Source: Microbacterium oxydans
GTDB lineage: Bacteria > Actinomycetota > Actinomycetes > Actinomycetales > Microbacteriaceae
Length of the DNA: 64,000 bases
Assembly (NCBI RefSeq): GCF_900095745.1
Contig: NZ_FMIR01000009.1
Coordinates: forward strand, 62,001-126,000
Reading direction: 5' to 3'
Part shown: positions 31,296 through 34,002 of the stretch, in pieces
Numbering within the stretch: position 1 is the first letter of the stretch
How the letters are laid out: every line of letters begins with the position of its first letter
The notes under the pieces: model-generated
Databases searched by the model: none
What the model was told of the DNA's origin: nothing
Seen by the model: the letters and a program-made list of their open reading frames with translations, nothing else
Position numbers and translations under genes: made by a program

Positions 31296-32486
<1,191 letters not shown>

Positions 32487-32499
32487 GTACCTGCTTCCT

Positions 32500-32541
32500 C
32501 ACAGAGGGGTCGGACCTTCGGGTCCGGCCCCTCTGTGTTTT
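32500..32541 (+). terminator. Terminator of tuf
   Basis: CACAGAGGGGTCGGACC (32500-32516), loop TTCG, and the complementary arm 32521-32537 (one G-T pair) are followed by TTTTGT. This is a textbook intrinsic terminator. Confidence 0.92.
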
Positions 32542-32632
32542 GTATCGTGTCGGGAGTTTCCTCCGCGCGCCAAGACGTGCACAATGATCTCGTCGGCCTC
32601 TTCGTCGACGCACACCTGAGAAGGGGATTCAC

Positions 32633-32845
32633 ATGGGTATCGATGACGCGGTGAACAAGGGCAAAGACCTCTACGAGCAGAACAAGGACAAGATCGCCGA
32701 GGCCGTCAAGAGCGACCAGGCCGAGGACATCAGCGACAAGGTCCTCGATGGCGTCGCGGACTTCGCGAAGAAGATCGCTCCGGGTGCCGCCGACAAGATC
32801 GACGAGATCCGGGACAGCGCGGACAAGTCCGTCGGCAACGAGTAA
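32633..32845 (+). CDS. MT0933/Rv0909-type antitoxin-like small protein
   Basis: This 70-residue, highly charged, helical protein (DDAVNKGKDLYEQNKDKIAE, then ADFAKKIAPGAADKIDEIRD) resembles the MT0933-like antitoxin family. No toxin-like gene is adjacent, so the antitoxin label is by family only; it may be a stress or CsbD-like protein. GAGAAGGGG is the ribosome site. Confidence 0.65.
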   Translation: MGIDDAVNKGKDLYEQNKDKIAEAVKSDQAEDISDKVLDGVADFAKKIAPGAADKIDEIRDSADKSVGNE

Positions 32846-32862
32846 CAGCCCCGCACTCTTCG

Positions 32863-32894
32863 AGCGGCGGTCCACCACCCGGTGGATCGCCGCT
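32863..32894 (+). terminator. Terminator of the antitoxin-like gene
   Basis: AGCGGCGGTCCACC (32863-32876) pairs with GGTGGATCGCCGCT (32881-32894) with one wobble, followed by TTCGTAT. Confidence 0.7.
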
Positions 32895-32964
32895 TTCGTA
32901 TACAGAGGCACGCCCCGTTCGATCTGGTGGTCGTCAAATGTGGCGGATTCGCAGATGTATCGAG

Positions 32965-33275
32965 TAGGATCGTCTCGACCGCCTGGGGATCTTGCGGTCG
33001 GGGAAGCCGAAGGGGTTCGGTTTCCCGAAGCACGCGGGCTTTCCGCGTTGAAACTGGGGATAAGCGATCTTGGGGATCATCGTGCGACGCGCGCACTCTG
33101 TGCGCCTGAGCGTCACCCTGCCTGCGCGGCGGGTCTTCCGCCGCGCCCTCGAACGAGGAGTTCGGCGTCCCTTCACGCCGGGCTACTCGCGTTCGGTGTG
33201 CCCCCTCGCACTGAACGCCCTCCCCAAGCGGGGCGAGGCATGGGGATGCCTCGCCCCGCTATCTCCCTCCTTCTG
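32965..33275 (+). ncRNA. Candidate structured RNA of about 300 nt between tuf and the S10 operon
   Basis: No convincing ORF lies here. After TAGGAT (32965-32970, a possible -10) come consecutive stable hairpins: 32976-33000 (7 bp), 33001-33026 (11 bp, GGGG loop), 33032-33048 (6 bp), 33086-33114 (5+6 bp), 33124-33146 (9 bp), 33163-33180 (6 bp), 33191-33216 (8 bp), and a perfect 15-bp terminator (33227-33260). The motif TGGGGAT recurs at three unpaired or loop positions. It does not show the conserved cores of RNase P RNA, tmRNA or SRP RNA. An Ms1-like RNA or an extended leader of the S10 operon are alternatives. The -35 is weak. Confidence 0.4.
33227..33260 (+). terminator. Perfect 15-bp terminator hairpin closing the candidate RNA
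   Basis: AGCGGGGCGAGGCAT (33227-33241), loop GGGG, and the perfect complement (33246-33260) are followed by ATCTCCCTCCTTCT. The pyrimidine-rich tail favours the plus strand. No protein gene ends nearby on this strand, so it must end some other transcript. Confidence 0.75.
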
Positions 33276-33329
33276 ACCCGGAATTCGACGTCCGTCACCG
33301 GCTCCCCGAGGGGCGCGACACGCCCGGGT

Positions 33330-33359
33330 TTGCAGAAGTGAAATCAGCCGTGGCAGAAT
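33330..33359 (+). promoter_or_regulatory. Candidate S10 operon promoter
   Basis: TTGCAG (33330-33335) and CAGAAT (33354-33359) are spaced 18 bp, in a local AT-rich patch about 335 bp ahead of rpsJ. Confidence 0.5.
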
Positions 33360-33693
33360 AGACAGGTTCGATATTCCGTCGCCGCTGTGCGTGCGCCGGA
33401 TCACTGCCAGGGCAGTGCATAGACGGCGGTTCCTCATGGGGGCTGCAGGGTTCTAGGCCGCGGGTAGCAGAACACACACCCCGACACCCTTCTCACCGAG
33501 GGGTTCGCCGTGCGCGGCGGAGGTCGGGCATCCGGTCGCCTCGCGGCGTCCGGCTGACAGAAGAACAGTGGTGCAGCAGATCGACTCGAGAGAGCCGTTC
33601 TCGTGCCGAGGCGCGAACAGCGCCGACGTGCGTCCAATGCCCCAGGGCCACCCGGTCCCGGACGGTATGACGCCTAAAGAGAGAGAGCAGACA
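33360..33693 (+). promoter_or_regulatory. Long S10 operon leader
   Basis: About 330 bases precede rpsJ, with no supported ORF. CACTGCC/GGCAGTG (33402-33417) forms a perfect hairpin nested in CCGTC/GACGG (33376-33380 and 33422-33426). S10 leaders in several phyla bind a ribosomal protein for feedback; that role here is inference. AGAGAGAG lies before the rpsJ ATG. Confidence 0.5.
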
Positions 33694-34002
33694 ATGGCGG
33701 GACAGAAGATCCGCATTCGCCTGAAGTCGTATGACCACGAGGTCATCGACACGTCCGCACGCAAGATCGTCGACACCGTGACCCGTGCGGGTGCGACCGT
33801 CGTCGGACCCGTGCCCCTTCCGACCGAGAAGAACGTCGTGTGCGTCATCCGGTCGCCGCACAAGTACAAGGACAGCCGCGAGCACTTCGAGATGCGCACC
33901 CACAAGCGTCTGATCGACATCGTCGACCCGACGCCCAAGGCCGTCGACTCGCTGATGCGTCTCGACCTGCCTGCCGATGTCAACATCGAGATCAAGCTCT
34001 GA
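33694..34002 (+). CDS. rpsJ: 30S ribosomal protein S10
   Basis: This 102-residue S10/NusE has [25 protein letters not shown] at its start and the [13 protein letters not shown]-type end. It also serves as NusE in antitermination. The ATG at 33694 follows a purine-rich ribosome site. The longer frame upstream (33568) is rejected as non-homologous. It is first gene of the S10 operon. Confidence 0.98.

Follow-up and report, generated by a model that had tools for sequence, protein, structure and literature searches.

The window analysed here, a 64,000-nt (64-kb) stretch of the genome of Microbacterium oxydans (genome G000 in our survey), carries a predicted structured RNA gene of about 285 nt on the + strand, at ~32978-33262, between tuf and the S10 operon (Table 1). 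A gene for a 70-aa protein (32633-32845) lies between tuf and the RNA, ending at 32845, and is followed by a short hairpin at 32880-32892. Its product shows sub-threshold similarity to the MT0933-like antitoxins of Pfam (E 5e-5; 23.8 bits against a cut-off of 27), and the gene is found 5' of the RNA in 71 of 77 carriers; it also lies 5' of rpsJ in several genomes that do not carry the RNA. On the 3' side, 76 of the 77 distinct aligned loci have rpsJ downstream in the same orientation, the stretch from the 77th containing no rpsJ. The distance from the RNA to rpsJ is 324-622 nt in 75 loci and 2619 nt in one, i.e., carrier G369 (L141 1007-3625), in which 2.6 kb with a 683-aa ORF separates the two.

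Table 1. Features of the RNA locus in window positions, with the evidence for each.
Feature	Position	Strand	Evidence
-10-like box TAGGAT	32965..32970	+	TAnnnT in 77/77 aligned carriers, sought in a 19-position stretch (chance there roughly one in ten by our estimate)
Structured RNA gene	32978..33262	+	covariation on 43 and 77 sequences; R1 model matches
Hairpin H1, ACCGC/GCGGU, loop GGGG at 32985-32988	32978..32998	+	5/5 pairs with two-sided changes; 100% of cells paired
Hairpin H2, GGGG tetraloop at 33012-33015	33001..33026	+	7/9 pairs with two-sided changes
Hairpin H3, variable	33032..33048	+	5/5 pairs with two-sided changes; absent in 3/77
GGGG in the joint linking H3 to the closing helix	33056..33059	+	GGGGA in 77/77
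Possible hairpin H4, CGAU/AUCG around CUUGGGGAUC	33065..33082	+	weak
Closing helix, 5' strand UGGGGA	33071..33076	+	pairs with 33221-33226
Hairpin H5, two-part stem	33086..33114	+	8/11 pairs with two-sided changes; 29 nt in 76/77
Hairpin H6	33124..33146	+	6/9 pairs with two-sided changes
Hairpin H7, loop UCCCUUCA at 33168-33175	33155..33188	+	10/13 pairs with two-sided changes
Hairpin H8, loop CCCCCU at 33201-33206	33189..33218	+	5/12 pairs with two-sided changes
Closing helix, 3' strand UCCCCA	33221..33226	+	pairs with 33071-33076
Terminal hairpin, 15 bp, GGGG loop	33227..33260	+	8/15 pairs with two-sided changes; 7 never vary
S10 promoter-like block, CGACACGCCCGGGTTTGC ... CAGAAT, apart from the RNA	33316..33359	+	putative promoter

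From 5' to 3', the predicted structure consists of hairpins H1, H2 and H3, a joint carrying GGGG, a closing helix that encloses H5 to H8, and a terminal hairpin. A sequence-only reading of this stretch had proposed seven hairpins with stems of 6-11 bp; seven were recovered (H1, H2, H3 and H5-H8), with stems that range from 5 to 13 bp. The candidate hairpin H4 was paired in 92.4% of cells on 43 sequences, with two-sided changes in two of its four pairs, and H4 and the closing helix would together form a possible pseudoknot. The closing helix was paired in 94.5% of cells; one of its six pairs showed two-sided changes and three departed only by unpaired cells. By eye, this helix reads UUGGG/CCCAA in locus L136 and AUGGG/CCCAU in L139 and L140, and its covariation appears only modest. 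The two stem parts of H5 had the lowest proportions of paired cells of all helices (86.6% and 89.5%). The 5' part of the RNA varies in length, in H2 and H3. Lengths in the 3' part are fixed or nearly so, with the terminal hairpin at 34 nt in 77/77 copies, H8 at 30 nt in 74, H7 at 34 nt in 71, and the joint between H5 and H6 at 9 nt in 77/77; H6 is the exception.

We infer that the RNA is transcribed on its own, from a start predicted at about 32977-32978. A consensus scan of 32400-33800 found no sigma-70-type promoter. At the other end, the strands of the terminal hairpin (33227-33241 and 33246-33260) pair perfectly, as the sequence-only reading had stated in calling it a perfect 15-bp terminator. 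The terminator scan did not list this hairpin and no T run lies 3' of it; it is probably a terminator without a U run, and its apical 12 nt, GCAUGGGGAUGC (33238-33249), which are invariant in 77/77 copies, make it more than a terminator.

The interval 32965-33275 folds with a free energy of -173.8 kcal/mol, compared to -138.5 ± 4.8 kcal/mol in 100 shuffles (z -7.35; 0/100 as good). For the 285-nt core, the z scores were -5.96 on the + strand and -5.89 on the - strand, and being nearly equal they cannot by themselves tell which strand is the RNA. Pairs read on the + strand contained 377 G-U cells compared to 72 A-C cells, and this excess indicates that + is the RNA strand. Energy folding of the exact 285 nt did not return H1; a C-rich linker paired with the GGGG of H1, which makes an exchange between GGGG sites conceivable.

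Comparison of the copies showed that the predicted RNA structure is under selection. From 79 unique copies, we picked 45 representatives and aligned 43 of these diverse copies with MAFFT, without structural help (alignment A1); L134 (insertion) and L138 (unsure 5' end) were left out. RNAalifold on A1 returned 77 pairs, 40 of them with two-sided changes. When a 93-pair structure that includes two candidate pseudoknots was scored on A1, 94.0% of cells were paired and two-sided changes occurred in 51/93 pairs, compared to 23.5 in shuffled and 18-22 in slid controls; this alignment is unfitted, but the structure was drawn from the same sequences. A second alignment (A3) comprised 77 of the 82 carrier copies, without L063 and L089 (identical to others), L068 and L082 (profile score the same as a neighbour's) and G479 (i.e., L055, which has a full-length match to the covariance model R1). 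In A3, which was fitted to the covariance model and so leans towards it, 95.6% of pair cells were paired across the 77 copies, 55/85 pairs had two-sided changes (23.2 shuffled, 18-22 slid), and 300 cells carried a two-sided change (72.9 shuffled, 36-64 slid). Kinship among the sequences inflates both controls, shuffled and slid. When column pairs were ranked by corrected mutual information, pairs of the model made up 7 of the top 8, 11 of the top 20 and 20 of the top 90; past the top ranks most pairs lay outside the structure, with no clear tertiary contact.

Insertions and deletions point in the same direction as the earlier claim that the stretch holds no believable ORF. Relative to the window copy, 279 of the 294 indels in the 77 aligned copies were not multiples of three; these break reading frames, and the locus is thus not a protein gene. 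In the 3' part, where conservation is highest, a short antisense frame has a start common to 60/77 copies and a stop common to 62/77, and we take this shared frame for a by-product of 3' conservation. Abundant compensatory changes in relatives, together with the conserved -10-like box and the end hairpin of constant length, bear out the proposal of an undescribed stand-alone structured RNA of ~300 nt.

Searches against known families gave no assignment. No Rfam family reached its gathering score in the window, and at E <= 10 the region 32850-33710 gave ten matches, all below gathering, with a best E of 0.64. RNase P RNA and SRP RNA, which had been judged absent from this stretch, have their own copies elsewhere in G000 (C2:362524-362880 and C13:11158-11254, respectively), and neither exceeded the cut-off at the RNA locus. 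6C RNA (RF01066), a known actinobacterial RNA with C-rich loops, had no match in the region or in G000, in a search of limited sensitivity given that the control search found it in only 1 of 14 named genomes and below the cut-off. Two of the checks that had been named for this RNA, an Rfam search and an alignment of relatives, returned no gathering match and two-sided changes well above the controls. A literature search covering titles and abstract openings, with most subscription papers outside its scope, found no report of such an RNA. We consider it highly likely that the locus is a structured, stand-alone RNA gene belonging to no known family; as such it represents a new family within a broad kind of RNA that is already known.

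The RNA was found by BLAST (E <= 1e-6) in at least 82 of 366 Microbacterium genomes, with one match in each. Apart from the query itself, the matches were 68-99% identical, and five covered less than about two thirds of the length. Species with the RNA include M. oxydans, M. maritypicum, M. paraoxydans, M. hydrocarbonoxydans, M. murale, M. algeriense, M. sufflavum and M. galbinum. The covariance model R1 matched at full length in all 78 carrier loci searched (135 to 315 bits) and in 42/42 further loci, including one with a truncated end. A pattern scan of 84,980 named genomes returned 57 stretches, 41 from Microbacterium and 16 from elsewhere; R1 matched all 41 of the former (one cut at its end) and none of the latter at E <= 10. 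Across 299 genomes sampled from throughout the family, searched with stricter filters by which weak matches are lost, R1 gave full-length matches only in G000 and G258, both Microbacterium. No match to the RNA was found in phages, plasmids or viral contigs.

Several weaker signals were examined and discarded. The first DNA search of the family gave matches in 56 of the 299 genomes at E <= 0.01, which apart from those in G000 and G258 were just stretches of 20-72 bases. Partial R1 matches in other genera (L147-L151, at most 26 bits) covered one hairpin, that in L148 being partial with many mispairs, and were left uncounted. No credible R1 match was present upstream of rpsJ in the 40 + 19 non-carrier loci searched; the weak matches at E <= 10 (five among the 40 loci and four among the 19) were partial or lay elsewhere, and the best full-length match in a non-carrier (L248, 10.8 bits) falls inside tuf.

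We placed presence of the RNA on a quick tree of 115 rows (56 of them carriers) built from rpsJ and the sequence that follows it, with hand-picked non-carriers. Four changes are needed to explain its presence; 47 carriers form one group (SH-aLRT 92) and 9 fall in two other places. We read this pattern as inheritance in place with losses, though change counts cannot separate gain from loss. With no match in 284 of the 366 Microbacterium genomes and four changes of state on the tree, the RNA is not a universal housekeeping RNA.

The same distribution bears on whether the RNA might associate with RNA polymerase and function like Ms1, 6S or the CoRP RNA of Corynebacterium. Its size and stand-alone character would suit such a role, and Microbacteriaceae lie outside the Micrococcales families with predicted Ms1 in the accessible part of the table in PMC9130861. 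CoRP is presented in the accessible text of PMC11077062 as a genus-restricted RNA that binds RNA polymerase, with the proposal of one such abundant RNA per species. We nevertheless hold this role to be improbable, since an RNA that BLAST does not find in 284/366 genomes of its genus is hardly a universal RNA polymerase RNA; it also lacks an Rfam match, and its fold is a chain of hairpins rather than the long rod with a central bubble that the accessible text of PMC4191392 gives for Ms1. The neighbourhood differs likewise: Ms1 is accompanied by HAD-IB hydrolase and oxidoreductase genes in the accessible text of PMC9130861, and the present RNA is flanked by the MT0933-like gene (71/77) and rpsJ (76/77). 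On both fold and flanking genes, the suggestion of an Ms1-like RNA made in the sequence-only reading does not hold.

In 76/77 distinct loci the RNA lies shortly before rpsJ and in the same orientation, as would be expected if it were a cis-acting leader or attenuator of the S10 operon. However, a conserved promoter-like block precedes rpsJ in carriers and non-carriers (32 loci), with GTAGACT replacing CAGAAT in some non-carriers, and its upstream motif was found in 68 of 72 loci. Because the block lies 3' of the terminal hairpin, and is there with or without the RNA, the S10 operon most likely starts at this point and the RNA is a separate unit. That block and the operon leader behind it, found in carriers and non-carriers alike, together with the carrier in which a 683-aa ORF stands between the RNA and rpsJ, render a role as S10 leader very improbable.

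The S10 leader itself, of ~330 nt (window 33316-33693 with the block), contains conserved blocks near GGATCACTGCCAGGGCAGTGCATAG, GGGTTCTAGGCCGCGGG and TGACAGAAGAACAG in carriers and non-carriers. RNAalifold on 68 sequences gave 50 pairs, 16 of them with two-sided changes, and no Rfam match was obtained for this segment; it is possibly an undescribed ribosomal-protein leader.

Within the stand-alone RNA, GGGG occurs at five sites, namely the H1 loop, the H2 tetraloop, the joint, one strand of the closing helix and the terminal tetraloop. It is present in 77/77 copies at four of these and in 76/77 in the H2 loop, the exception being CGGGAA in L136. The extended form GGGGA was found in the H1 loop of 71/77 copies, in the joint and the terminal hairpin of 77/77, in the closing strand of 75/77, and in H2 of only 4/77. 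Four copies of TGGGGAT (32984, 33055, 33071 and 33241) lie in the RNA, out of six on the + strand of the window. The motif had been noted before as three exposed copies; the count is four, and the copy at 33071 is probably paired with 33221-33226, so that one GGGG site out of the five probably sits in a helix. The sequence GCATGGGGATGC occurs exactly in two places in G000, the second apparently in coding sequence, and with up to one mismatch in 35 places, compared to 16 for a reversed control pattern.

Two C-rich loops are also conserved, CCCU of the H7 loop and CCCCUC of the H8 loop showing no variation in 77/77 copies. Most stems around the invariant loops do vary. Constant 3' lengths and invariant loops together suggest a rigid 3' core, and loops that are recognised by a partner or by one another.

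Pairing of C-rich loops with G-rich ribosome binding sites is a known mode of action in Gram-positive bacteria, and the RNA could accordingly be a trans-acting antisense RNA. The loops of H7 (UCCCUUCA) and H8 (CCCCCU) would serve as seeds for the G-rich ribosome binding sites of mRNAs, and the GGGG loops as self-inhibitory kissing partners. The invariance of both C-rich loops and the constant lengths of H7 and H8 (71 and 74 of 77) agree with this, and the H2 and H8 loops are complementary. The H2-H8 kissing pair, however, shows no covariation: both loops hardly vary, and the altered H2 loop of L136 has no compensating change. Nor did 6C RNA match in the RNA region or in G000. On balance we regard an antisense function as rather unlikely, though a serious alternative.

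The repeated G-rich motif recalls instead the CsrA sponges CsrB and RsmZ, in which GGA within the loop sequence GGGGA would bind CsrA. Repeated GGA motifs in loops, a trait of CsrB/RsmZ, are found here, most copies having GGGGA at all but one of the five sites. A csrA gene is present in G000, and csrA occurs in 58/82 carriers compared to 48/284 non-carriers. Moreover, GGGGA is missing from H1 in 1/54 copies from genomes with csrA and in 5/23 from genomes without it (0/54 and 2/23, respectively, for the closing strand); this looser A is as relaxed selection after loss of csrA would give, but the copies without csrA are also more divergent, and divergence alone may account for it. Occurrence alongside CsrA, the second trait of CsrB/RsmZ, does not extend to 24 of the 82 carriers, which have no csrA and include whole groups of the tree. 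The 23 aligned copies from such genomes retain GGGG at four sites in every case and in H2 in 22, and keep GGGGA in the joint and the terminal loop throughout. Furthermore, csrA changes 16 times on the tree compared to four times for the RNA, and the two independent pairs on well supported branches are too few for a test. Since carriers without csrA keep GGGG and csrA changes oftener than the RNA, CsrA is unlikely to be the general partner, and a CsrA sponge is a quite improbable description of the RNA as a whole; CsrA may be one partner where it is present. As an observation on csrA itself, the gene comes and goes frequently in the genus (106/366 genomes; 16 changes on the 115-row tree), perhaps with flagella.

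Taken together, the comparisons predict that the locus is very probably an undescribed structured RNA gene that acts in trans. With its own putative promoter and terminal hairpin, the RNA would act away from its site of synthesis, and each of the five GGGG sites would bind an RNA-binding factor, one other than CsrA or additional to it. In the 3' part, with its constant geometry, the C-rich loops would either keep the fold together by loop-loop contacts or base-pair with ribosome binding sites rich in G. As the mechanism we tentatively put forward titration, in which the repeated GGGG would capture an RNA-binding factor, because one motif recurs in loops and joints. In its fullest and equally speculative form, the proposal is that one sub-lineage of Microbacterium has a new class of RNA which acts in trans, displays five GGGG sites and ends in an invariant GCAUGGGGAUGC hairpin serving both for termination and for binding; this RNA would titrate a novel actinobacterial RNA-binding regulator (or RNA polymerase).

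Few regulatory RNAs seem to have been described in Microbacteriaceae, and these bacteria are not known to have Hfq or ProQ. A strongly covarying RNA of ~285 nt with near-invariant loops offers a handle on RNA-based regulation in this family, and its absence from related species of the same genus allows comparative tests of its function.

Four known systems invite comparison. The RNA shares its location upstream of rpsJ with leaders of ribosomal-protein operons, but it ends in a terminal hairpin before the S10 promoter-like block. With Ms1/6S and CoRP RNAs it has in common its size range and its status as a stand-alone gene, and with CoRP also its restriction to a lineage; it differs in having no rod with a central bubble, in its neighbours, in the lack of an Rfam match and in being missing from most of its genus. 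Like 6C RNA (RF01066), it presents conserved C-rich hairpin loops in an actinobacterium, but it does not match the 6C model and carries five GGGG sites. Finally, it resembles CsrB, CsrC and RsmZ in being a stand-alone RNA with a single short G-rich motif that recurs in hairpin loops and joints, and departs from them in its GGGG(A) motif, in its csrA-less carriers, and in its constant 3' hairpins and invariant C-rich loops.
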